Origin: a virus
IMG/VR virus record: IMGVR_UViG_3300008107_001297
Location: 1 to 28,667 of that record
Reading direction: 5' to 3' (one strand)
DNA length: 28,667 nt
Notes under the pieces: generated by a model
The model's input: the letters and a program-made list of their open reading frames with translations, nothing else
Told to the model about the DNA's origin: nothing
Databases searched by the model: none
Position numbers and translations under genes: made by a program
In this document: positions 3,113 to 28,667 of the stretch, piece by piece
Position numbering within the stretch: the first letter of the stretch is position 1
How the letters are laid out: every line of letters begins with the position of its first letter

Positions 3113-3397
3113 TTAGTTTAATTCTATATCAAATACTATCGTTGCTGAGGTTTTTATACTTTTGCTTAAGTTGAGTCTAATGTTGAATAAATTGTGTAAT
3201 TTCAATATCTCTTGGAGAAGCATGTCATTATATTTGGGTGCTGATGTTGCTATCCTAAAATGGTAAGAATGAGGTGTTTTAGTTATTTCCATAGAACAAA
3301 GCTCATCCACCGATTCTACAAGACCCATAAAATGCTGAAAGTAGGCTGCATCATTATCAGCCATCACCTCAGGAAAATACTTCTTTATTATATACAT
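3113..3397 (-). CDS. unknown phage protein (94 aa)
   Basis: This 94-residue protein begins MYIIKKYFPEVMADNDAAYFQHFMGL. It appears to be a compact alpha/beta protein: an N-terminal helix with VESVDELCSMEITK, a strand with SYHFRIAT, a helical stretch LLQEILKLHNLFN and a C-terminal strand ATIVFDIELN. I recognise no family. Its ATG overlaps the stop of the Dps-like gene as TAATG at 3397, so the two are probably translated in a coupled way and may act together. It has no signal peptide or membrane segment. Function is not assigned. Confidence 0.7.
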   Translation of the reverse strand: MYIIKKYFPEVMADNDAAYFQHFMGLVESVDELCSMEITKTPHSYHFRIATSAPKYNDMLLQEILKLHNLFNIRLNLSKSIKTSATIVFDIELN

Positions 3398-3810
3398 TAA
3401 GACAGAGTTAGTAAATATTTTACTTTAGCCGCTTCCCCAGAAAGTGCATCAGCAAGATTTGAAATATCGTGATATCCATTGCTTTCTGCATAGCTTTTTA
3501 AAGAGGATGAGAAAGACAAAAGATTTGATACACATTCACTGGATGTACAGTTTGTAAGAGGTTCTATCTTATAAGGACCAGGTTTCCTACCTGTATATCC
3601 CATAAGCTTCTCTATAACACCATCTTTGAAATCATGGACATAATCGTACAATCCCCCAACAGCTTGATGTTCTGCATAACTACTTGTTTGCCAATGAATT
3701 AGATGTAGTTGCTCATGAAAATATGTAAGCTTTCCAGCTATATTTTCTAATGTCATTTCTCCAGAAGAACTATTTAGCATTTCTTGAGGGAATAAAGATT
3801 TAATTGCCAT
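3397..3810 (-). CDS. Dps/ferritin-like helical protein (DUF5856-type), 137 aa
   Basis: The segment LTYFHEQLHLIHWQTSSYAEHQAVGGLYDYVHDFKDGVIEKLMG (about residues 28-71) resembles the first two helices of Dps/ferritin-like proteins. It has His-Trp (HWQTSSYAEH) where Dps has HWNxxGxxFxxLH, and an acidic helix follows. From memory, phage proteins with this pattern are labelled DUF5856 and predicted to have a ferritin-like fold. Length fits one four-helix bundle. Some ferroxidase-type ligands look present (His in HLIHW, His in YAEH, Asp in YDYVHDF), but activity is not assured. It may sequester metal or bind DNA or virions. It precedes the 94-residue gene with a TAATG overlap. Confidence 0.6.
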   Translation of the reverse strand: MAIKSLFPQEMLNSSSGEMTLENIAGKLTYFHEQLHLIHWQTSSYAEHQAVGGLYDYVHDFKDGVIEKLMGYTGRKPGPYKIEPLTNCTSSECVSNLLSFSSSLKSYAESNGYHDISNLADALSGEAAKVKYLLTLS

Positions 3811-3825
3811 TTTATTTGTTTACTT

Positions 3826-4239
3826 TTATAATGATATAATTTCTAAAAAATAACTACCAGGAATTGGATAAATTGATACTGCATATTTAAGAGGTCCTTC
3901 AGAAGCTATTTGTAAACAAATTTGATCTGGTGCAGAATAAGTAAACTTTCCAAAAGAAGATAAATTTGTATTCAAAAACTCAACAAATTCTTCATATGTT
4001 GTACTAGTATTATTTCCTATAAGAAGTTGTAATTGACCCCATGAACCTGAAAGTTTAAAAAGTATGCTAGTTTGATTTATAGTTTCAGAATCAACAGTAG
4101 TACATGTAATTATATTACTTAATCCACTAACAGGATTACAACACTCATATCCCTGCACTTCCTTCCAATTACCTACCTTGGGCTTGTTCTTTCTCCATAT
4201 AAGAGAACTAGAGACAGCTCTACCGCTACCATCGTAGCG
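3826..4239 (-). pseudogene. 3' part of a split APKVG-module protein gene
   Basis: Read from 4239 this frame encodes RYDGSGRAVSSSLIWRKNKPKVGNWKEVQGYECCNPVSG (broken here only by this description) and then about 100 further residues to the stop at 3826. The first ~35 residues align with the N-termini of the intact proteins at 4983-5441 (FVRYAQN..., APKVGTWKEV, ICC) and 9007-9354 (FVRYANN..., APKVGVWKEV, LCC). The missing first 12 residues lie at 4925-4960, on the far side of a ~685-bp insertion carrying a GIY-YIG nuclease. Expression needs splicing, an internal start (a GTG at 4156-4158 would give about 110 residues) or is lost. The downstream part is Thr/Ser-rich and structural in character. 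Confidence 0.75.
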
Positions 4240-4907
4240 AATATTTTTTTTCTACACCACTCTCCTACAGAACTAGGAGAAACATTTTCACATTCAGCAG
4301 CATGATGTAAAGAGTTATAATCTGCTAAAAGTTTATTGTCAATAGTATATTTATAAACTCTTTTGCCTCTTGGATTGATCCAACCCTTCTCTTTTCTTTC
4401 TTTGTTTTTTAAAGATATAAGCTCTTTTGTTTCTTCAGAATGTTTTTTGTTCTTCATTCCTCCAACCTGTCCCTTATGAGAGATAGATAGTTTTTTTAAA
4501 TGTTCTTCTGAATATATTCCTTTTTTATTTTTATTCCAAGGAGTGTTTCCTTTATTACCTTTACCTCCTTCTGAAATATTTAAAATATCATATCCCTCAT
4601 CTCTGTATTTTTGAATATATTGTATTTCTTTTTCAAACGCTTCTTCTTCAGACAATTTTTCTTCTATTATTTCAAAAGCAACCTTTTTTCCCAAATTATC
4701 AATTGTGTTGTTTAACCAAACATACAATGGTTTATGTAAACAAGTTTTTCTTTTTCTATCAGTGTTGTGTTTAGTTACTCTTTGTTTTGGATTTTTAGTA
4801 ACTCCAACGTATATACAATTATCACTTTTATCAAAAGAGTACATTATGTAAAGAGAAAAATCATTTTCAGGCTCATTGATATTAACTATACCGTTATAAT
4901 CCCTCAT
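4173..4907 (-). CDS. GIY-YIG homing endonuclease with NUMOD3 and NUMOD1-like DNA-binding domains (244 aa)
   Basis: The N-terminal catalytic domain has a degenerate GIY-YIG signature (LYIMYS at 19-24, IYVGVTKNPKQRVTKH at 32-47 with Arg43), the acidic helix EKEIQYIQKY with Glu94, and LNISEGGKG at 109-117. NUMOD3-like segments follow (NTPWNKNKKG and KNKKHSEETKE), then a NUMOD1/IENR-like helix-turn-helix (RVYKYTIDNKLLADYNSLHHAA... VSPSSVGEWCRKK, about 183-221). This is the standard build of phage homing endonucleases. It fills nearly the whole segment that splits a structural gene: its ATG is 17 bp after the 5' fragment. Its last ~22 residues, after ...WCRKKI, are translated from the interrupted gene in another frame, so the natural C-terminus is probably near residue 222. 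Confidence 0.9.
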   Translation of the reverse strand: MRDYNGIVNINEPENDFSLYIMYSFDKSDNCIYVGVTKNPKQRVTKHNTDRKRKTCLHKPLYVWLNNTIDNLGKKVAFEIIEEKLSEEEAFEKEIQYIQKYRDEGYDILNISEGGKGNKGNTPWNKNKKGIYSEEHLKKLSISHKGQVGGMKNKKHSEETKELISLKNKERKEKGWINPRGKRVYKYTIDNKLLADYNSLHHAAECENVSPSSVGEWCRKKIFATMVAVELSLVLLYGERTSPR

Positions 4908-4918
4908 TATAAATTGTT

Positions 4919-4960
4919 TTAGTTTACATAAGCTTTGAGATCACGTTTGTTTGTTGCCAT
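4919..4960 (-). pseudogene. 5' fragment of the split APKVG-module gene
   Basis: ATG at 4960 opens a 13-codon frame, MATNKRDLKAYVN, then TAA. It aligns with the start of the intact paralogues (MAQKKAFVRYAQ and MANKKGFVRYAN). Joining its valine codon (4925-4927) to the arginine codon at 4237-4239 gives AYV-RYDGSGRAVSSSLI, which restores the family pattern in frame. It therefore looks like exon-like fragment 1 of a gene interrupted by the GIY-YIG insertion, not an independent peptide. Confidence 0.75.
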
Positions 4961-4982: not shown

Positions 4983-5441
4983 TTAAGTAAAAGTTCCAAC
5001 AACAAAAGTTAGTTCTCCTATAGGACAAATAGATTGTTTTTTACATTCTGTCATTGTTAAAACTATCGTATCTCCATCTAGTGAAAATTGTCCTACTAAA
5101 GTAACAAGAATTGGATTATTACTACCATATGTATTATTTAAATAAGCTACTAAGTCTAATAAATTATTAGGATTAGGACTATAATTAGTACTATTAAAAC
5201 TAACTGTAACGTTGTCACATTTAAATTCCAAAAAAACTCCATTTGAAAAATCAGTCGTTTCTGGAGTAAATGATAATGTTACTGTTGTTTCATTACTACA
5301 ACAATTTCCTCCACCTCCACAACAAATGTCATAAGGAACCTCTTTCCATGTTCCCACCTTAGGAGCTTTTGTTCTAACAATTAAGCTTCCAGGAACCGCT
5401 TTATTTTGAGCGTAACGTACAAATGCTTTTTTCTGTGCCAT
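4983..5441 (-). CDS. structural protein with N-terminal APKVGxWKEV module (152 aa)
   Basis: Residues 1-40 (MAQKKAFVRYAQNKAVPGSL..., APKVGTWKEVPYDICC) form a module shared with the proteins at 9007-9354 and 3826-4239/4919-4960. It ends in a Cys-Cys pair. A Gly/Cys/Asn-rich linker follows (CCGGGGNCCSNET, about 41-53), then a Thr/Asn-rich beta-type domain (VTLSFTPETTDFSNG..., LVALVG-like strands). The constant N-terminus followed by a variable C-terminus is typical of an adaptor that docks different tips to one place on the virion. It is spaced one base from the upstream glycosyltransferase stop (TAAC-ATG). Ligand and location are inferred. Confidence 0.72.
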   Translation of the reverse strand: MAQKKAFVRYAQNKAVPGSLIVRTKAPKVGTWKEVPYDICCGGGGNCCSNETTVTLSFTPETTDFSNGVFLEFKCDNVTVSFNSTNYSPNPNNLLDLVAYLNNTYGSNNPILVTLVGQFSLDGDTIVLTMTECKKQSICPIGELTFVVGTFT

Positions 5442-5442
5442 G

Positions 5443-6462
5443 TTAATATTCTAATTTATATTTTTCTTTTAGCTCTAGGAGCTTTGTTAAATAGAAATGT
5501 GTACAATGTTTTTTGCTTTCCTCACTGTTTAACACTGTCTGTAAATGAGGATCTTTGAAAGGATCAGTTCCTTGGTGATATTTACCCTTGTAGAAAGCTG
5601 GATAACCATTAGCTGTATCACTCACAATCCCTGCATTATGGAATATTGCCACCTTGTCTAGCTTCTCAATACTGTCTGAAGCCCAGGCAAATTCTAGCTC
5701 TTTCACCACCTTTGTTTCATATCCTCTATACCAAAGGTTCCATAAAACAGCCCACATATCAGCACACCAGCTTTGGAATCCTTTGTTCTCATTTTCAAAA
5801 TATGTCTTATTGATTGTCAATAAGTATCTTCTTATGAGCATACAATCGTTATACACCTTGCTCCAAAATGCTGCATCTACGTTCTTAAGAAGATATTGTG
5901 CTCCTCCAGAATGTAGATTGTTCTTCTCACAGATTTCTCTATCTATCCCTACAATAGAAGCTGCTTGATTAAGAACATCTATTTTCTTGTATTCTTCTAG
6001 CTTCTCAGGAAGAACATCTTTTATCTTACTGTCAAAATATGAAGCATTTATGTAACTGTTTGTATCAGAAAGATAGCAAACATCATCATTTATGAACTTT
6101 TCGATGTCCAATTTGTCTGTAAACAACACATCACTATCGCAATAAAAGATAGCTTTATATTTCATCTCTGGACGATCTGCAAAGTATTTAGTGAGACACC
6201 AAGGGCGTAATATTGGAATATAAAAATTAAGTTTGTTAGTTACATCGTTTCTATCATCTCTGTAGAAAACAAACTCTGCTTCTGGATAGAGATCAACAAT
6301 TTTATCCCATTTATCACTTTTCTGTCTAAATCCTGGAGTGAAAACAATCACTGTAGCCCTATCTGAATATCCCAGGTTTTTTAAACTCTCAATCCATGCA
6401 TGCACCTGCCATGTGTAATATGTGTCATCTGGCTGTACACAGATAAACCTTAAATCCTTCAT
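5443..6462 (-). CDS. GT-A/GT8-like glycosyltransferase (339 aa)
   Basis: The fold signature is a nucleotide-sugar glycosyltransferase. It has an N-terminal Rossmann-like start (FICVQPDDTYYTWQVHAWIESL), RPWCLTKYF near 87-95, then AIFYCDSDVLF with the DxD metal/UDP-sugar motif at Asp109-Ser-Asp111. HSGGAQYLL follows at about 184-192, an SWCADMWAVLW segment, and FHNAG near 275-279 as a late His. Length fits a single catalytic domain. There is no signal peptide or membrane anchor, so it acts in the host cytoplasm. Within a virion cluster it may glycosylate a phage fibre or capsid protein, or modify a host surface precursor; the acceptor is not visible. It lies immediately upstream of the 152-residue APKVG-module gene. 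Confidence 0.75.
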   Translation of the reverse strand: MKDLRFICVQPDDTYYTWQVHAWIESLKNLGYSDRATVIVFTPGFRQKSDKWDKIVDLYPEAEFVFYRDDRNDVTNKLNFYIPILRPWCLTKYFADRPEMKYKAIFYCDSDVLFTDKLDIEKFINDDVCYLSDTNSYINASYFDSKIKDVLPEKLEEYKKIDVLNQAASIVGIDREICEKNNLHSGGAQYLLKNVDAAFWSKVYNDCMLIRRYLLTINKTYFENENKGFQSWCADMWAVLWNLWYRGYETKVVKELEFAWASDSIEKLDKVAIFHNAGIVSDTANGYPAFYKGKYHQGTDPFKDPHLQTVLNSEESKKHCTHFYLTKLLELKEKYKLEY

Positions 6463-7257: not shown

Positions 7258-8553
7258 CTATAGAACGTCTCTTTCAAGCTGGTTAGAAAAAAGGGCTTCT
7301 TTGAGGATGTTTATACTAGGTGATCCTTGGTTAGAGGAGTTAACATATCCACTAGCTAACACTCTTCCTCCTGTAGCACTTGTTCCTGTAATATTATAAT
7401 CTACAGCAGAATCAGCACCAGCAGTTAACCAACTTCCTCCAGAAATTGATACATTGCCATTCACCACTCTCCAAGCATAATTTTTACCATTACCAAGTCC
7501 TATGAGAGAAATAGCTGTTGCAATTACAATAGCATCTAGTCTTGTAGTCTTAAGTCTTATGCCTACAATGGGATAGTATGTACCAGCTACAGCAAATGTT
7601 CTAGGTGCAGTGATGGATGTACCAATAGACTGTTGTTTACCTCTAAGCTCATAACCACCTTCTGATATCACTGTAGAACAAATCTGTTTTAATGTAGCTG
7701 TTCCACCTGCACCAGATGAAGTGATTATATCATAACGCAGTGGTAATGAAGCAGTTGTGATGTATGTAGAAGCTATGATGTTAGCATGGTTGAATGTGTG
7801 ACAAAGAATAAATTGTCCATTGATAACAAATCCCATTCTTACAGACCCCACTCCTAACCACTCCATATCCATCCAAAGAATTTGTGCTTTAGTGATGTCA
7901 AGAGTGAGTCCTGAAGGACCTGTTCCATCAAGTTTATCACCATTCCAATCTGCTTGGTTAACTTCTGTATATACAGGTGTTCCTGTTACAGTGCTAGCTT
8001 TAACAAAACTAAGTGTATTTACAGCACCTCCTGTAAAACTTTTATCTGCTAATTGTAAATAAAAACCATTAGATTGTGTAATAAGTCCACCACCCACTAT
8101 CCCATTTTCACGAAAATATCCCACTCTCTGTGTAAGACCAACTTGAGCAGGGTTGAGAACAAATGTATTTAAAGTGAGAAGTGACTTACCAGGTTGGTAA
8201 GAAAACACTTTAATTGTTTCTCTAATAACATAATTAATATCTCCTAATCCAGCTGAGTTTGTAACAGTTAAATCTACAAGTCCTTGGTTAGCATTAAATG
8301 TAGCTGTACCTCCATTAACAGCTGTAGACCAAAGATCATTATCATCAAATCTATGACTAGAATCAAATAATGTAAAAGGTTGAGACACTCTAAGTCTTCC
8401 AAAAGCATCTTGTGCTGTAGAAGGAGCAAAAGTAATTGCTGTACTTTCATTACCAGATGCAACTATTCCATTAAGTCTATCAACTTTCTTTAATAGCTCC
8501 CACAAGAGATTGCTCTCTTGAGACCAGCCTATTTGTTTGGGAATTATTGCCAT
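7258..8553 (-). CDS. phage tail/structural protein with KQIGW adaptor and FGRLRVSQPFTLFD domain (431 aa)
   Basis: Start is set at ATG 8553, giving MAIIPKQIGWSQESNLLW, which aligns with the two related proteins; an upstream TTG at 8562 lies inside a promoter-like element. After the 30-residue adaptor comes AQDAFGRLRVSQPFTLFDSSHRFD (about 47-70). This signature recurs in tail or host-binding proteins of many tailed phages, which usually have a beta-sandwich of roughly 400 residues. Further text such as GGYELRGKQQSIGTSI supports that family. It is probably a receptor-binding or baseplate component. It is the first gene after a terminator hairpin and a TTG-N20-TAAATTTG promoter candidate, so it may head its own transcript. 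Confidence 0.8.
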   Translation of the reverse strand: MAIIPKQIGWSQESNLLWELLKKVDRLNGIVASGNESTAITFAPSTAQDAFGRLRVSQPFTLFDSSHRFDDNDLWSTAVNGGTATFNANQGLVDLTVTNSAGLGDINYVIRETIKVFSYQPGKSLLTLNTFVLNPAQVGLTQRVGYFRENGIVGGGLITQSNGFYLQLADKSFTGGAVNTLSFVKASTVTGTPVYTEVNQADWNGDKLDGTGPSGLTLDITKAQILWMDMEWLGVGSVRMGFVINGQFILCHTFNHANIIASTYITTASLPLRYDIITSSGAGGTATLKQICSTVISEGGYELRGKQQSIGTSITAPRTFAVAGTYYPIVGIRLKTTRLDAIVIATAISLIGLGNGKNYAWRVVNGNVSISGGSWLTAGADSAVDYNITGTSATGGRVLASGYVNSSNQGSPSINILKEALFSNQLERDVL

Positions 8554-8559
8554 AATATA

Positions 8560-8590
8560 CAAATTTATACTATTGTTGTAGTATTAACAA
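8560..8590 (-). promoter_or_regulatory. candidate Bacteroidota promoter for the 431-aa tail gene
   Basis: On the minus strand TTG (8588-8590), a 20-base spacer, then TAAATTTG (8560-8567) matches the Bacteroidota consensus TTG-N19-TAnnTTTG. It lies directly after a terminator hairpin and ends six bases before the ATG at 8553, so the transcript would be leaderless or nearly so. Such matches arise by chance in AT-rich DNA; position is the main support. Confidence 0.4.
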
Positions 8591-9006: not shown

Positions 9007-9354
9007 TTAACAAGGAGGTGAAAACGCAACAACGATGCTATTTTCTACAATTCCAGCTAAACCTGATCCATAATAATATCCATCTGGAACAGGTTGATCA
9101 TCAGTGGTTTTGATTGTAAGATTTCCATCACAAGCATATATTTTATAAAAATCAAGTTCTCCACCACCACATTCTTCTGTAGTATACTGTAATTCTAATT
9201 GTATATAAACATTGCTACAAACAGACTGCTCACAACATAAATCATAAGCTACTTCTTTCCATACCCCAACCTTTGGGGCTTTATCTGCTAAAATTAATGA
9301 TCCAGCCACTAATTTGTTATTAGCATATCTTACAAATCCTTTCTTATTAGCCAT
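9007..9354 (-). CDS. structural protein with N-terminal APKVGxWKEV module (115 aa)
   Basis: Residues 1-40 (MANKKGFVRYANNKLVAGSL..., APKVGVWKEVAYDLCC) are the same module as in the 152-residue protein at 4983-5441 and the split gene at 3826-4960. The remaining 75 residues are different, short and Cys-containing (LELQYTTEECGGGELDFYKIYACDG). The chain ends VAFSPPC. This intact copy fixes what the split gene should look like. It probably occupies an equivalent virion position with another tip. It starts two bases after the stop of the 81-residue gene. Confidence 0.72.
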   Translation of the reverse strand: MANKKGFVRYANNKLVAGSLILADKAPKVGVWKEVAYDLCCEQSVCSNVYIQLELQYTTEECGGGELDFYKIYACDGNLTIKTTDDQPVPDGYYYGSGLAGIVENSIVVAFSPPC

Positions 9355-20822: not shown

Positions 20823-21140
20823 TTACCTTCTATTACTTTCCTTTTGGATGGTAACATCGTGTTCTTTAGCAAAGTCAGAATCAAATATAGATAAGTAGGT
20901 GACAAGAGATTTTGTAAACGGAAATATCTTCATTGCATATTTTATGGGGTGGGCCTTTTCTACCACCTCATCATAAGACTTTGTAGGGTCTGACAAATCT
21001 AATCCTGTGGTTTCTAACCACATTGCTGTAAAGAATTTACCTATATCTTTTATAAGTCCAACAGCAGGAAATATAAAACCTAAAACGGTTCTTTGCAGCC
21101 TTGTCAGCATCATCATCTGGTCCCATAAAGCCCATGGCAA
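20823..21140 (-). pseudogene. frame-shifted C-terminal tail of the giant protein
   Basis: This frame overlaps the end of the giant gene and continues it. Where the main frame breaks into ...KNRFRFYISCCWTYKRYR and stops at 21037, the +1 frame reads VLGFIFPAVGLIKDIGKFFT and then about 70 structured residues (GLDLSDPTKSYDEVVEKAH, TKSLVTYLSIFDSDFAKEH) to the stop at 20823. The hydrophobic-then-charged content fits the preceding C-terminus better than an independent start at 21140, whose first codons (MPWALWDQMMMLTRLQR) are the giant's code out of frame. A one-base change in the AAAA run at 21082-21085 or a programmed shift would join them. Confidence 0.7.
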
Positions 21141-24100
21141 ATCCTGCCCCTATGAGAGACATGAGAATAGCAATTTCTCTCACCTGATTTTGAAGGTTTC
21201 TTCTTGTCATATCAACAAAATCAGCAAATTCCATATCCATCACTTCCCCTGTTTCTTGTTCATATTTGGTTTTATAAACCTCATACATTTCTCTGTAAGC
21301 CTCCATTCCTTTATCATTCAAAACCAACATGTTACTTAACCTACCTATCTTGGGAAGAAGAATTGAATTTAATACATATCCAAGAAGTCTAAGTCTACCT
21401 ATATCATATTTCTGACCTTCAACCTTACCATCTGCGTTAATTGTTACAGAAAAGTCATCACTCACCTTTCTAAATTCACCAAAACGAGTTTCTGTAAGTT
21501 TAGGAATCCAGTTTTTAAAAACCATCATACTCTTTGTCCAAACGTTCATTTGCATCTGGTTAATGTCTCCATCAGAAATACCTCCTGTTGCATTTCTAGC
21601 AATACGTCTAGTTAAACTTGTCAAACGCAAGATTTCTTCTTTATTATTCAAATCCAATCCTGGAATAACTAACTTCCCATTTTCCATTTTCTTTGTTTTA
21701 GATATGGATCTGGTTTTCTTTAACTCCTCCACTTCTCTTTCTATCTTCTCATTTGCTTCTCTAAATGCAGCTGCTGAATCCCCTCTATTTTTATATTTGC
21801 TTTTCACAAACTCTCTAATAGGGATAATCTTTCCATTCTCTACCATCATATTATCCAAGAGAGAAAGGAATATTGTTTTTTCTATCAGTTGTTCAGGCAT
21901 TCTCATGAACACCATAAGATCATCACTAAAGCTTCTTCTTGTACCAACAATCATCCCTGCTTTCTTCATCATTTCGTAGGAAGGATCATCTTTCATAGGC
22001 ATAAACACATCCACTAGTTCACGAAACATTTTTTTCTCTTCATTGCTGGAAATAGTTTGAGACAATAAAAATGCTTCATTTTTAGTGAATTCTGATCCTT
22101 TGAAATAATGTCCTGCTTGTGTAAGGGCTTGGATGTTACCACCAAACCAGTTTACAGCACCTGATATGAATTCAAAACCAAGAGTTTTAAGCTGGAATGC
22201 TCTGTTTGCAGCATCAATTGTTTTAATCATTGATGCAGGATTGTCATTAGGAGTTAAAACTTCTTTTCCTGCAATTTTATTTATAAGCTTTTTTAATTCA
22301 TTTACAGGTTTTCCAATGTTGAATGCTGCATCTTCATCAGACAGAGAATACTTTTGATCGTATAAAAGAGTTCTCATGAATGCATCAAAAAGAGCTGCAT
22401 TCTCCTTGTTCCCAGCCTCTTCAATAGGATCACCTGCTGCATCTCTAACAACATTCCCAATCTTATTTGTTCTAAGGTGTCCTTTAAATTCTTCTATATC
22501 TTTAATTATCTTCACCTGACCTTCCACCTCAGATAGGTATTTATACTTATTTACATGTTGTAAATACAATATCATGTTCTTAAATAAATCCTCACTCACT
22601 TCTGAATAATCATTCACTCCATTTTCTTTCTTACTAAAATCATGTGTGTAATATTTTGGAATAGAATGTTCAAGTTCACCAGTTAGTGTATTATACTTAC
22701 CATATCCAACATCATCTGGATGCATTGTTAAACTATCTTGAAAGTTCTTCATTATAGACAATGTTCCATCCCAAGCAAGTTCTTCAGCCATTCCTTTTCT
22801 AACAAACGGTAAGAATGTTCTGTACACCATGTTGCTAACATACCCTATTTCATGAGCTTTCTCATTAATCTTTGTAATAAAATCATAGAGCTCTAATAGT
22901 TCAGGATCAGCTTTAACAGCTAAATAGTCTTTTGAGAACCATTTGTCAAGAGGATATCTTTTTAAAATATAGTTTCCTGTAGACCATCCGTTAAAATCTG
23001 ATCTTTCAATATCCCATCTACGTTTTTCTTCTTTGATGAGCTTTTCTCTTAAATCTGGATCATTAGGGTGATTGTTCTCAATTCTTTTTATCCTTTGATT
23101 CATCACTTCATCAGCATCCTTCTTGTACTTCTCCATATCAATATTGTCTCTTAGCCACTGTTTGTTACCCCCTTCTTCAGCCATTGCATCTATCTTGTCA
23201 TAAAACTCTTTACTGTATTTATAAACAAGCTTGTTTACAAATCCACCTTTTTCATCTTTTTGATATATGGTTTTTACAAGATTTCTAAGATTACCACCTC
23301 TTTTAGCAAGTCTTTCTCTTATGTCCATTAACTTTTTCACCTCCTCAAAAGACTCAGCGTTTGCCAGTCCTTTTGCTCTGGTTGTAAGTTTGAAGAGAAG
23401 ATTAAGAGCTGCGTTTTGAAGTTCAGATATACCTCTAAATCTACTAAAGAATCCCTTAATCACCTTTCCAGCTTTGGTGAGTCCTGCTGTAAGATTTCTT
23501 TGACCAATGTGTTTATCTGCAAAATCAAGTCTTGCTGCCTTAATTGCTAGATTACTTTTGTATATAGATGATGTTTGAAATCTTAATCTGTTTAATGTCT
23601 CCTCTCTGTAATCAAGAAGTTCTTGTTCTTCTTTTGTTTTAGCATCTTTTCTCCATTCTGGGCTATATATAAGATCTTCAAGTTGTCTATCAATATTAAC
23701 AAACACATCAGAAATTTCTATATAATCAAGCATTTCTTCTGAGAAATCTGAAAGAGTGGTGTTGTCTACATCTACAGATGTAGCAGGTTTATCTTTGTAA
23801 ATAGCGTTGTAATCATTTACTATTCTGTTACCTCTTTGTTGTATTGTTTCAATGATATCAATTAAAGGAACTAAGTCTGTCTTACCTCTAGCTAAACGAA
23901 TGGCTTTTTGAAGAATAGAAAGTTCTTGTCTTTTCAACAAACGTTCTTCTTCACTTGTCACTTTTTCATCAGACAGTTTTGAAAGCACTGCTTCCAGATC
24001 TTTCAACACCTTGTCCAACACATTATTACCTGTAGATTCTGTTTTCTCTGAAACAGGAAGAAGTCTAAGGTCTTCAATTTTCTCAGGGTTTACAGATCCT

Positions 24101-27030
24101 ATTGCTATACCACTTAAATACTTTTCTGAATTAGGAGCTTTTGGATCTTTCTGCTTAATATCAAGAAGAATAGGAATAGCCCTTATTTTACCAAACTCTT
24201 TTATTCCATAGTTATCTCTAAGGATTTCCTTATATCTTCTGAGCTGAACATCATATGCTCCTTGTTTATACCAAGCAACATCCTCTCCCTGGTTTGTCAT
24301 AAACTTCCAGTCAAGAATATGAGCTTTACCAGAAGGTTCTATTGCAAGAAAGTCAATTGTACCAGCTTCTTTTTCTTTGCTGTCATATATAATTCTTTCT
24401 GAGAGAATTAGTGTGTCTTTAGGAAAAGTGTCAATTAGTTCAACATAATAGTTCTCTAACGTGTCATACATATCCTTAGACTCTAGTTTGAACTTTGTTG
24501 GAGGATCGTCTGGCTTCTCTTTCCTTGTACCATCTTCATTATAATATCTTCCATGTATTTCTTCCAAATCAGCATGTCCTGCTACACCAAACTTTCTCTT
24601 TAATTCGTTAAATGCTTTCTCTTGTTCTGTAAACTCTTTCTTTCCAAATATACCTCTATACCATGCTTTCACTCTGTCTGTCACCCTTTTAGCAATAACA
24701 TCCCATGTTCCAGCAGCATTCTTTATTCTATAATAATTGGTTGCTTCTTCAGAATCAGATAGTACAGGATCTACAGGCTTATCATCTACAACTTTTTCTA
24801 TACTGTTTTTTGTGTTATCTAGTTTGTTTAACACTTCCTGTTGTATATTTGAAACAGTTTGCAAGAATACACCATCTCCCTTAATCATTTTAACTGTTCC
24901 ACCCACATCTCCTTGCATAATCTTTTCAGCCACCTCTTCAAATATAGAAATGTTAGCTGCTTTGTATGTTTGTCTTATAGCACCCAAAACAGCATTCCAT
25001 GCTCTCTTCACCCAAGACTGATTCTCTTCCTGTGTGAGTTCTGGGAAATCTGTAGATCCCTCATTCTTGTTGATAATCACTTCTGCAATAAGCTTATCTA
25101 CAGCTTCTTTTTTTATTTTACGAATGTCTGGTTTACCATTAGGAAGTTGGTATTCTTTTCTTCCCTTATACGCTTCTAGAGTTTGTTTGTAGATTTTGAA
25201 TTTATCAATCTTACTTATCATCTCTGTGACAAGTTTGGGATTGGTTTGCTCAAGAATGGCTGTAGCCAAATGCACCATTTCTTCTGTAAGAGCAACATCT
25301 TCTTTTCCTGTAGCAATAGCAATCACCCCTTTAACTAAATCAGCCACACCATTTACAGACTTTGTGTCTACAGAAGGATTGGATTTTGCATAATCTGCAA
25401 GATCCTGGATGCTAATCCCCATCTTCTTAGCAGCTTCCTTCACCTTGTTTAAGGTTTCTTTAGAAGCTGTAGACATAGGCATTCCTTCTGTCTGTAACAA
25501 TACAGCCTGTTGATCTCTTTCTTTGGAGATAGTTATTTCATTCCATGTATTTCCATATTCATCTGTAACTTGTTTAGGATTGTATCCTTGTTTTTTAAGA
25601 ATATTAGTTATATCATTTTCATAAAATTTCGCAGTATTTAAAAGAGAAGGTTGATGTGAAGATATTCTTTCTTTACTTTCAACAATTAACTTTTTTAACT
25701 TTTCAGTAGGATTTTTATCATATTCTTCTTGTTGTTCTTGTAATACTTGACGATATTCTTTGTCAATTTCTTCCCATCTATCATCTTTTAAAGCTTTTTC
25801 AGCTTCACTATAAGTTTTAAATCTACCCACGCTTTCTATTTGTATAATAGTATCAAGTTTTGGAAATACTACTTTTTCATAACCTTTTTTAGCAGAATCT
25901 TGGATAATAGATTTAACAAAGAATGTCACCCAGTTGTTAGATTTGTTTAGAAGTTGGAGGAATTGATTACTTTTACCCCAAATCATAGCTTCCCTCTTTT
26001 TTACCATAAAAGCTATTTCATCATGCTTTTTTTTAGCTTCAATAAATTCTTCTTCTGTAATATCTTGCTTCCCTACAGTTAAACCCCTTTCATTAAGTAT
26101 ACTTTTAAATGGAATTTTACCAGAGCCATTATAAATTCTACCATCTATAGTAAATATTCTAGGGTTTTTACTAAATTCACTAAAGTTTCCAGTAAGTGAC
26201 TCTTTATCCCTACCCTTCTGAAACAAATCAGATTGTAGTTCTAGTATTCTACGAGTTTTAGTAGGAGTTTCTGCTTGTTTTTCTAATTCATCTAAACCTT
26301 CCATACTCATTTCATCTGAGTAGTAAGCCTCTTTTAATTTATCAGAATACTCTTTCTTTTTTTCAGAAACTTTATCATCACTTCTAAACCATCCTATACC
26401 TTGATCTGTAGCAAACTGAGCATGACCTTTAATATTAGGAGTGATGGCTGGTGTAGCTATTTCATTCTCTGTATAATTGGTTCCTCCTGGAACTGTTAGG
26501 TTAGAGTAATATTGAGTATTTGGAATACCTTGTTCATTTAACTCTTTTGCATATTTTTCAGCAGCTTCCTTTGTTTTAATTTCTCTTCTGTAAATATTAT
26601 CATCTTTATCTACAACATTCCACCACCCAAAAGAACTTTGTTCTGCAAAAAACTGTTTTGATTCTTTAGCCAAAGGATGGTCTGGTTTTCTTTTATCTTT
26701 AGCAATATTAATCTCAATAGTAAAGCTGTAATTAGCTAATATACTAGCAATCAATTCATTACGATCTGTTGTATTAAATGATTTGAGAAGTTCAAGTTGT
26801 TCTTTAGGAATAGCAAGATCAGCTTGCATCTTCTTCCAGAAAGCATCACCAGAGATTTTATTTTTAGCAACAGAAGCAAAAAACTGATCAGCCTTAGGAG
26901 ATTCTAATAAACTAGTGGCTTTTAACGTGTAGTTTACACCATCTACATTTATTTCAGCCAATAATGGATTACCACCCGTTCTCTCAAGAGCAGCTTTGAA
27001 TTCTGGGCTATTTGGATTTATACATGCCAT
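21037..27030 (-). CDS. giant polyvalent virion-type protein with PD-(D/E)XK nuclease domain (~1,997 aa)
   Basis: Start is placed at ATG 27030 (MACINPNSPEFKAALERTGG), one base after the upstream stop; the frame is open from 27090 but would overlap that gene by 59 bp. Residues about 190-270 hold LTVPGGTNYTENE... and ILELQSDLFQKGR (Gln266-Ser-Asp268), then AKKGYEKVVFPKLD; from memory this QSD-type domain is common in phage polyvalent proteins. A RecB/Cas4-like PD-(D/E)XK nuclease follows: GTIDFLAI with Asp893, HILDWKF with Asp907 and Lys909, and YDVQLRRY (926-933). The remainder is helical, with WTKSMMVFKNWIPKLTETRFGE near the C-terminus, a pattern I associate with very large proteins of Bacteroidota phages. 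It is probably packaged and ejected with the DNA. Its natural end is frameshifted (see 20823-21140). Confidence 0.8.
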   Translation of the reverse strand: MACINPNSPEFKAALERTGGNPLLAEINVDGVNYTLKATSLLESPKADQFFASVAKNKISGDAFWKKMQADLAIPKEQLELLKSFNTTDRNELIASILANYSFTIEINIAKDKRKPDHPLAKESKQFFAEQSSFGWWNVVDKDDNIYRREIKTKEAAEKYAKELNEQGIPNTQYYSNLTVPGGTNYTENEIATPAITPNIKGHAQFATDQGIGWFRSDDKVSEKKKEYSDKLKEAYYSDEMSMEGLDELEKQAETPTKTRRILELQSDLFQKGRDKESLTGNFSEFSKNPRIFTIDGRIYNGSGKIPFKSILNERGLTVGKQDITEEEFIEAKKKHDEIAFMVKKREAMIWGKSNQFLQLLNKSNNWVTFFVKSIIQDSAKKGYEKVVFPKLDTIIQIESVGRFKTYSEAEKALKDDRWEEIDKEYRQVLQEQQEEYDKNPTEKLKKLIVESKERISSHQPSLLNTAKFYENDITNILKKQGYNPKQVTDEYGNTWNEITISKERDQQAVLLQTEGMPMSTASKETLNKVKEAAKKMGISIQDLADYAKSNPSVDTKSVNGVADLVKGVIAIATGKEDVALTEEMVHLATAILEQTNPKLVTEMISKIDKFKIYKQTLEAYKGRKEYQLPNGKPDIRKIKKEAVDKLIAEVIINKNEGSTDFPELTQEENQSWVKRAWNAVLGAIRQTYKAANISIFEEVAEKIMQGDVGGTVKMIKGDGVFLQTVSNIQQEVLNKLDNTKNSIEKVVDDKPVDPVLSDSEEATNYYRIKNAAGTWDVIAKRVTDRVKAWYRGIFGKKEFTEQEKAFNELKRKFGVAGHADLEEIHGRYYNEDGTRKEKPDDPPTKFKLESKDMYDTLENYYVELIDTFPKDTLILSERIIYDSKEKEAGTIDFLAIEPSGKAHILDWKFMTNQGEDVAWYKQGAYDVQLRRYKEILRDNYGIKEFGKIRAIPILLDIKQKDPKAPNSEKYLSGIAIGSVNPEKIEDLRLLPVSEKTESTGNNVLDKVLKDLEAVLSKLSDEKVTSEEERLLKRQELSILQKAIRLARGKTDLVPLIDIIETIQQRGNRIVNDYNAIYKDKPATSVDVDNTTLSDFSEEMLDYIEISDVFVNIDRQLEDLIYSPEWRKDAKTKEEQELLDYREETLNRLRFQTSSIYKSNLAIKAARLDFADKHIGQRNLTAGLTKAGKVIKGFFSRFRGISELQNAALNLLFKLTTRAKGLANAESFEEVKKLMDIRERLAKRGGNLRNLVKTIYQKDEKGGFVNKLVYKYSKEFYDKIDAMAEEGGNKQWLRDNIDMEKYKKDADEVMNQRIKRIENNHPNDPDLREKLIKEEKRRWDIERSDFNGWSTGNYILKRYPLDKWFSKDYLAVKADPELLELYDFITKINEKAHEIGYVSNMVYRTFLPFVRKGMAEELAWDGTLSIMKNFQDSLTMHPDDVGYGKYNTLTGELEHSIPKYYTHDFSKKENGVNDYSEVSEDLFKNMILYLQHVNKYKYLSEVEGQVKIIKDIEEFKGHLRTNKIGNVVRDAAGDPIEEAGNKENAALFDAFMRTLLYDQKYSLSDEDAAFNIGKPVNELKKLINKIAGKEVLTPNDNPASMIKTIDAANRAFQLKTLGFEFISGAVNWFGGNIQALTQAGHYFKGSEFTKNEAFLLSQTISSNEEKKMFRELVDVFMPMKDDPSYEMMKKAGMIVGTRRSFSDDLMVFMRMPEQLIEKTIFLSLLDNMMVENGKIIPIREFVKSKYKNRGDSAAAFREANEKIEREVEELKKTRSISKTKKMENGKLVIPGLDLNNKEEILRLTSLTRRIARNATGGISDGDINQMQMNVWTKSMMVFKNWIPKLTETRFGEFRKVSDDFSVTINADGKVEGQKYDIGRLRLLGYVLNSILLPKIGRLSNMLVLNDKGMEAYREMYEVYKTKYEQETGEVMDMEFADFVDMTRRNLQNQVREIAILMSLIGAGFAMGFMGPDDDADKAAKNRFRFYISCCWTYKRYR

Positions 27031-27031
27031 A

Positions 27032-28667
27032 TTAATAACATTCTTTAAGTTTGTTGATTGTGGTTTGAGCATCTTTTTGAAGAGCCTCATTGATGTAGCT
27101 CTTAGCTTGCTCTTCTGTCATCTTGTGCTTAGAGGCAAAATTAGTGATTATTTCTTGCTTTCTTTCAGGAGTGAATTCTGTTAATGTGTCAAAACTTACA
27201 ACTTCTGCACCTTCAACACTAGTGGATGGTTGTGCAGGAGCTACAGGAGCAGCAGCTGGAGCTTGTTTAACAACACCTCTTGGGAAATAAGAAGCCACCA
27301 CATCATCACTCTTCTCAGAGGAAGACCTCTTATTGGTTGCATACCTTATACCATTAAATATGTATTGATCCTTATATTCCTTTTCCTCCACTTTAACAAA
27401 CCCGTTATCAATCTTTGAAGGAACAGCCAGAGAATAAAGCTCTTTTGCTCTAAAGCTATCTCCCCATGCATTGATCATTTTGTATACAAACTGAGTAACT
27501 ATCTTACCACCTTGTGTGTAAGATGTTGTGACAGGAGTTTCATCTATTGGATAATAAACCTTTTTGAAAAGTCCTTTCTTTATGAAAGAGAAATCTCCTT
27601 CAGATCTCATTTGACGTTTCTTTGCAGCAACACTCATTCCTGCTTTAAGCTCCTCATCTGTAAGAATACTAGCATCCATAACCTCCCACGAATATACAAC
27701 AAATTCAGAATTAGCTGCTCTAGAACGAGCGTTTAATTTTAACAAACTTGGTATTTTACCTTGATTTATTGCCTCATCTACTTTCTTTGTAGACCCCTTG
27801 TCAAACTTCATGTTGTTGTTGTAGACGGTTTTCCCAAACGCATTTGTTTTTGGAGGACGAGCAGACTCATGAGGAACAATATCATCATCTGACCAGTTGT
27901 TTCTTTCGAACACATTCAAATCATAGAAATCCATAAGTCTCACCTTACCAAGATTTTCCATTATAGATAATGTATCATTGTATTGTTTTACAAAATCTTC
28001 ATATGGAAGAAGGCTTGTGAAGGATATTTTAGATGTAGAAAGTCCAGATTGAAGAAGAGAAACTCCTACAATATTCTGGTAGACATCATATCTTCCAGAA
28101 GCTTTCAGGTATTCTCTAAGTTCTCTAAACCCTTCAATTATAAGGTTTTGGTCGTACACCTTGTTATCCTTGTTAGTTAACATCAGGTTATCAGGAGTGG
28201 CACCTAGTCTGTCAGATATCTCAGCGTTCAAAATACCCTTCTTACCAATAATCATGTTATTGTACATAGCATGATTTTTGTCTCTAGCTATCTCATCCTT
28301 GAAGTCTTTTATCATCTTCACCCCACTGTTCTCATCCAACATGAGTCTTTTTAAGAAGTTCACCTTTGGAACATCTGAGTTGTTCTGCATCACCCAGTCA
28401 AAGAAATCACTTACAGCTTTTCTAGCTACAGTGACAAACTCCTTGTCAGAAAGATTTGTGTAAGGTGTAAGCACCTTCTCCATAATATTTCTGATTACAG
28501 ACTGGTCAGATTTTAATATCTGAGCTATAGCGTTTCTGCTCTTGTTTCCATATTCACGTATATCTTCAACAAAAGAGTTTTTTAACACGTCAGAAGCTGA
28601 GGAAATTATTGTTTGTTTAGCCTTTGCGTAGTCTGATTCTTTTTTAAACAAAATATAAGGATCATTC
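27032..28667 (-). CDS. large unknown protein, 5' end outside window
   Basis: The frame is open to the very edge of the window: codons before TTG 28651 read NDPYI, so the TTG is not a real start and at least 544 residues are present. Recognisable textures: an N-terminal helical part (ASDVLKNSFVEDIREYGNK), a middle with YNNNMKFDKGSTKKVDEA and SFIKKGLFKKVYYPIDET, a beta region (TSYTQGGKIVTQFVYKMIN), an Ala/Pro linker (QAPAAAPVAPAQPS, residues ~463-476 of the 539-residue part) and a C-terminal helix-rich tail (EQAKSYINEALQKD). I recognise no enzyme family. It ends one base before the giant gene's ATG, so the two are a unit and may be packaged together. Confidence 0.75.
   Translation of the reverse strand, partial: NDPYILFKKESDYAKAKQTIISSASDVLKNSFVEDIREYGNKSRNAIAQILKSDQSVIRNIMEKVLTPYTNLSDKEFVTVARKAVSDFFDWVMQNNSDVPKVNFLKRLMLDENSGVKMIKDFKDEIARDKNHAMYNNMIIGKKGILNAEISDRLGATPDNLMLTNKDNKVYDQNLIIEGFRELREYLKASGRYDVYQNIVGVSLLQSGLSTSKISFTSLLPYEDFVKQYNDTLSIMENLGKVRLMDFYDLNVFERNNWSDDDIVPHESARPPKTNAFGKTVYNNNMKFDKGSTKKVDEAINQGKIPSLLKLNARSRAANSEFVVYSWEVMDASILTDEELKAGMSVAAKKRQMRSEGDFSFIKKGLFKKVYYPIDETPVTTSYTQGGKIVTQFVYKMINAWGDSFRAKELYSLAVPSKIDNGFVKVEEKEYKDQYIFNGIRYATNKRSSSEKSDDVVASYFPRGVVKQAPAAAPVAPAQPSTSVEGAEVVSFDTLTEFTPERKQEIITNFASKHKMTEEQAKSYINEALQKDAQTTINKLKECY

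Follow-up and report, generated by a model that had tools for sequence, protein, structure and literature searches.

A GIY-YIG endonuclease gene that probably supplies a new start to a multi-copy phage module gene

The window, a stretch of 28,667 nucleotides of viral DNA (IMG/VR record IMGVR_UViG_3300008107_001297), carries on its minus strand a GIY-YIG endonuclease gene placed between the first twelve codons of a module gene and the startless remainder of such a gene (Table 1). The module family occurs in at least 257 viral contig stretches, with one to three copies between phrog_4417 and DUF5856 (loci L061-L139 included), and about 75 further loci show a module gene downstream of the phrog_4417 gene and ahead of DUF5856, mostly directly. 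Its proteins share about 46 conserved N-terminal residues (the start, RYDG, PKVG.W.E and ECC), followed by highly variable C-terminal parts; this N-terminus was also found in the two other module genes of the window where it had been predicted to be intact. The module matched no known family or fold. A model of the protein (pLDDT 84.6) gave no significant PDB match and one weak viral match, and the only basis for calling the module structural is therefore its neighbourhood.

A different GIY-YIG gene recurs just after DUF5856 (L014 6910-7398, L093 6551-6940, L099 5681-6070 and others), constituting a second endonuclease site in the same neighbourhood, and an Endonuclease VII-type gene lies at 1037-1486 of the window (Pfam 8.4e-21). 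Further along the window, an ORF of 2017 amino acids (21037-27090) seemingly loses its frame near its end; a 105-amino-acid ORF in another frame (20823-21140) may continue it, a possible sequencing error.

Table 1. Features of the endonuclease locus and its neighbours in the window.
Feature	Position	Strand	Basis or remark
Conserved downstream neighbour, DUF5856	3397..3810	-	Pfam, locus comparison
Module gene remainder without start, RYDGSGRAVSSSLIWRKNKPKVGNWKEVQGYECC plus variable C-terminal part	3826..4239	-	open frame
Endonuclease ORF tail encoded by module gene sequence in another frame, created by the deletion	4173..4244	-	relatives comparison
Deletion join, 97 bp of L010 and L004/L005 missing	4244..4245	.	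no microhomology
GIY-YIG homing endonuclease, 221 native codons, without last 15 residues and stop	4245..4907	-	Pfam, relatives
Leader, from remnant stop to endonuclease ATG	4908..4918	-	homologous in L010, L004, L007
5' remnant of 12 codons (MATNKRDLKAYV), closed by AAC TAA (Asn, stop)	4919..4960	-	relatives comparison
Neighbouring module gene, intact (MAQKKAFVRYAQ...), first of the modules that follow phrog_4417	4983..5441	-	
Conserved upstream neighbour phrog_4417, function unknown	5443..6462	-	located ahead of a module gene in nearly all loci
Another intact module gene MANKKGFVRYANN...	9007..9354	-	

The original prediction placed a 12-residue start, a nuclease frame and a module continuation at this locus, and all three were recovered. 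The minus strand from 4960 to 4925 reads ATGGCAACAAACAAACGTGATCTCAAAGCTTATGTA, in which ATG...GTA encodes MATNKRDLKAYV, with AAC TAA next; the RYDGSGRAV... frame is open from 4239 to 3826. The endonuclease ORF (4907-4173, 244 codons) matches GIY-YIG (PF01541) at 1.3e-11, with 45 bits against a cut-off of 22.6, and NUMOD3 (PF07460) at 4.8e-7, above the Pfam cut-off and C-terminal to the nuclease domain. By these domain criteria the ORF is a GIY-YIG homing endonuclease, predicted to cleave the element-free allele site-specifically. For its last 23-24 residues the ORF does use module gene sequence in another frame, as had been proposed. With dN/dS values of 0.11 and 0.19, the endonuclease is, by this sequence measure, under purifying selection. 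A structure model built with three sequences was poor (pLDDT 55.6) and was left out of the argument.

Close relatives were found in IMG/VR only: named phages searched by DNA gave no match, a search with the module N-terminus gave chance matches only and one with DUF5856 gave none. Remnant and endonuclease also occur together in five IMG/VR contigs (L010/L025, L004, L005, L006 and L007) from four metagenomes, representing at least three phage genomes, and L010/L025 matches the window at 99.9% identity across 1188 nt. The window endonuclease is 99-100% identical to those of L010 and L004, 82% to that of L007 and 52% to a copy in a further locus, L019, which itself scores 25.2 bits for GIY-YIG (Pfam), above the curated cut-off of 22.6; at the DNA level the endonucleases of L006 and L007 are 87% identical to that of the window.

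In these carriers the endonuclease and the module gene are both complete at their junction. Between endonuclease codon 221 and RYDG there are 97 bp of extra DNA in L010 and L004/L005, and homologous extra DNA in L006 and L007. The full endonuclease (236 aa in the L010/L004 type) terminates in ...EWCRKKAKPRNNFVYSYDKLN and a stop codon; FVYSY, its final strand, is still conserved in the L019 copy at 52% identity. After it come a leader and a new module start, ATGAGTAATAACAGACCTTTAAAGAGTTATATT, that is MSNNRPLKSYI, eleven codons with their own ATG, which run into CGC TAC GAT GG, or RYDG. The replacement codons of L007, MSNKRDLRAFV, likewise run into RYDG. The downstream gene is complete in L004 and L007, while the L010 contig ends within it. 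Identity between the old and the new starts is only 15-18 nt out of 33.

The 97 bp missing from the window comprise the end of the endonuclease with its stop, the leader, and the module gene's new ATG and replacement start, and the resulting join occurs in no other contig among the IMG/VR viral contigs searched. Judged against the relatives, the loss leaves the module gene without a start and the endonuclease without its C-terminal strand; past the join, no in-frame ATG, GTG or TTG occurs before a GTG at 4158, which lies downstream of the anchor. The codon-exact 3' boundary that was originally taken as an insertion boundary has therefore to be given up, since the relatives have 97 bp or homologous DNA there, and the insert of ~685 bp with no room behind the nuclease describes a deleted copy, the relatives holding at this point the endonuclease end, a stop, a leader and a new ATG. 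A plain insertion breaking the gene, one of the two readings first offered, stands in so far as the endonuclease sits at the 5' end of a module gene with a remnant upstream, but the gene is unbroken in the relatives, where a replacement start follows. A single record can mislead in this way, the apparently exact boundary being a 97-bp loss that is visible only beside relatives.

The other reading was an unusual intron, with coding and ribozyme functions superimposed, that would join AYV to RYD by self-splicing. In the window record alone, removing 4240-4924 does join them in frame. However, no group I or group II intron was matched by Rfam in the window region (E ≤ 10) or in L010, L007 and L019 (E ≤ 5), while the positive control, T4 td in the same 2.1-kb test, was found as Intron_gpI at E 2.6e-8, yet below the gathering score. 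The structure prediction proposed at the outset for a group I core gave an ordinary folding energy for 4240-4924 (z -0.78), and no ribozyme core was recognized in this stretch. In the relatives, moreover, the downstream gene begins with an ATG of its own and encodes a full N-terminus, and splicing is therefore not needed there. An intron of either group is very unlikely on this evidence, and a self-splicing one joining AYV to RYD can be given next to no credence.

The AYV-RYD join expected of intact homologues is present in uninserted module genes of L009 (MATNKRDLRAYVRYDG), L008 (MTNKRDLKAYVRYDG) and L012 (MATNKRDLKAYVRFDG), which begin MATNKRDLRAYV-RYDG, MTNKRDLKAYV-RYDG and MATNKRDLKAYV-RFDG, respectively. 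Intact uninserted genes with this remnant-type start occupy the same interval between phrog_4417 and DUF5856. The remnant is identical at 36/36 nt across the carriers of the endonuclease gene and differs little from the intact module gene starts of L012 (35/36 nt) and L009 (34/36 nt); among the fetched loci it was found only upstream of a GIY-YIG endonuclease of the window type. Its perfect conservation could reflect recent recombination instead of function. All six remnants have a common 5' junction and are thus counted as one founding event. The C-terminal, variable part of the gene that follows the endonuclease in L004 is orthologous to the first module gene of L009 (56%, 98 aa, 3e-32), whose own start, MATNKRDLRAYV, corresponds to the remnant. 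A gene natively beginning MATNKRDL.AYV therefore appears, from this comparison, to have a different N-terminus in L004, with its old start lying upstream of the endonuclease.

One observation counts against an insertion into the module gene. In L019 the 52% identical endonuclease stands directly before an intact module gene without any remnant, and the upstream gene overlaps the endonuclease ATG (TGATG). The remnant could therefore come from the deleted body of an extra upstream module gene: the endonuclease would always have sat between two module genes, the upstream one being later deleted down to 12 codons and the downstream one never having lost its start. Module genes often occur in tandem (1-3 copies) in the interval from phrog_4417 to DUF5856, which speaks for this history. 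On the other hand, the gene after the L004 endonuclease is orthologous to an L009 gene with a remnant-type start, so that no extra module body need be missing, and L007 and L009 each hold two module genes. We consider this history rather unlikely; a single founding event may have produced the remnant, insertion by cutting being favoured over loss of an upstream module body.

Patterns of divergence point to recent movement of the endonuclease together with its flanks. Between L010 and L004 the dS of the endonuclease is 0.015, as compared to 0.49 for the upstream gene (window against L004), and between L010 and L007 it is 0.47 as compared to 0.87. The near-identical tract begins close to the remnant ATG and stops where the anchor ends, and the DNA flanking it is dissimilar; within the tract the leader and new start are identical at 59/59 positions and the anchor at 106/109. 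In L004 and L007 the tract precedes the first intact module gene, whereas in the window an intact first module gene stands ahead of it. The endonuclease gene is present or absent at one locus and, by the dS contrast, has moved horizontally, as a free-standing endonuclease would. This contrast and the moving flanks are, on sequence grounds, marks of a homing endonuclease that transfers with its flanks. General shuffling of modules, in which recombination between conserved module starts moved the tract with the endonuclease as a passenger, would also fit module starts conserved at the DNA level and a tract that ends at the anchor edges. It is an unlikely explanation, given that the endonuclease appears to be under selection and that free-standing endonucleases are known to drive such local transfer (PMC2988022).

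The native form of the element is probably, from the comparison of relatives, a cassette that carries a free-standing GIY-YIG homing endonuclease, occupies the 5' end of a small, multi-copy phage module gene and supplies that gene with a new start. In the relatives the unit comprises, in order, the 12 original codons and a stop, the endonuclease, a leader, eleven paralogous codons with an ATG of their own, and the rest of the module gene from RYDG. The anatomy and the recent transfer are shown by the sequences; cleavage of an uninserted module gene near AYV/RYDG by the endonuclease is inferred, and repair would then copy the cassette into the cut gene. The cassette carries its own start, and the target gene would therefore stay readable. 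In the window, a later loss of 97 bp, or an assembly error, would have removed the endonuclease end and the new start.

That loss is one of three (76, 124 and 97 bp) that distinguish the window from its 99.9% identical twin L010 within 6 kb, with about six substitutions elsewhere; each is blunt or nearly so and cuts a gene that is whole in relatives. The window lacks 76 bp at about 7265/7266 that are present in L010 and, at similar length, in L006, and its virion structural gene (phrog_1645, 7258-8562) ends early as ...LERDVL. Conversely, L010 (L025) lacks, around its position 4739, 124 bp corresponding to window 5428-5551; as a result, the phrog_4417 gene and the MAQKKAFVRY module form one continuous frame there (TDPFK-EAFVRYAQ). 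In two of the three cases the end of the loss is within 10 nt of the module R codon. An endonuclease-like target at all three was considered and rejected, the 76-bp site not being significantly target-like (rank 11-49 among ~6100 positions).

The three losses could be endonuclease-induced breaks with one-sided loss, or assembly errors. We lean slightly towards errors of assembly or library preparation, the phage itself having an intact cassette, which is compatible with the homing model. The join is unique to the window record, and three blunt losses within so short a distance between twins, each cutting a gene whole in relatives, would be in keeping with such errors; assemblers, however, do not normally join sequence without overlap, and the position of two losses beside the module R codon could also result from a real endonuclease cut. 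A bolder and rather doubtful extension is that the cassette, its left end being the target's first 12 codons and its right end a recoded start, hops between paralogous modules, swapping their anchor and never breaking them, and that abortive cuts leave one-sided deletions such as those of the window and L010.

Among known systems, I-TevI, the endonuclease of the T4 td group I intron, shares the GIY-YIG domain and a weak similarity with the window endonuclease (27% over 89 aa, pairwise E 0.05), but it is encoded in a ribozyme intron detected by Rfam, and none was detected at the window element. SegG gave no sequence match with the endonuclease. T4-related phages contain both free-standing Seg endonucleases and gene-splitting insertions such as mobE in the nrdA gene of Aeh1 (PMC2988022). 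The Seg genes resemble the present element as free-standing GIY-YIG genes between or beside phage genes that home without an intron; unlike it, they are described, in the passages of that source considered, with neither a displaced gene start nor a replacement start (PMC2988022). In the case of mobE and of mobA, which lies in the T4 topoisomerase gene, a homing endonuclease gene is likewise found inside a phage gene, but the gene is split into two polypeptides that reassemble (PMC2988022); the present element instead replaces the first 12 codons, which drop out of the gene. No earlier phage case (crAss-like GIY-YIG, N-terminal replacement) was found among the open-access titles and abstracts covered, which does not prove absence.

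The closest precedent, by analogy, is that of the fungal mitochondrial mORFs, seen as a mirror image. In Allomyces macrogynus (atp6) and Glomus sp. (atp6, atp9, cox2 and nad3) these elements carry a foreign C-terminal copy and leave the native C-terminus of the entered gene displaced (PMC3630166). Both types combine an endonuclease ORF with a foreign, diverged gene end and leave the displaced native piece behind as a remnant; the entered gene remains expressed in the mORF case (PMC3630166) and is predicted to do so in the phage. At the present locus the foreign copy stands beside the endonuclease, in frame, with the native end displaced, at the 5' rather than the 3' end. The mORFs replace the 3' end and encode LAGLIDADG endonucleases, with one GIY-YIG (PMC3630166), whereas the window-type element replaces the 5' end and belongs to a bacteriophage. 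If the proposed model is true, it would represent a route by which an intronless endonuclease gene enters coding sequence without killing its target, and the phage 5'-end counterpart of the mitochondrial replacement-end elements.
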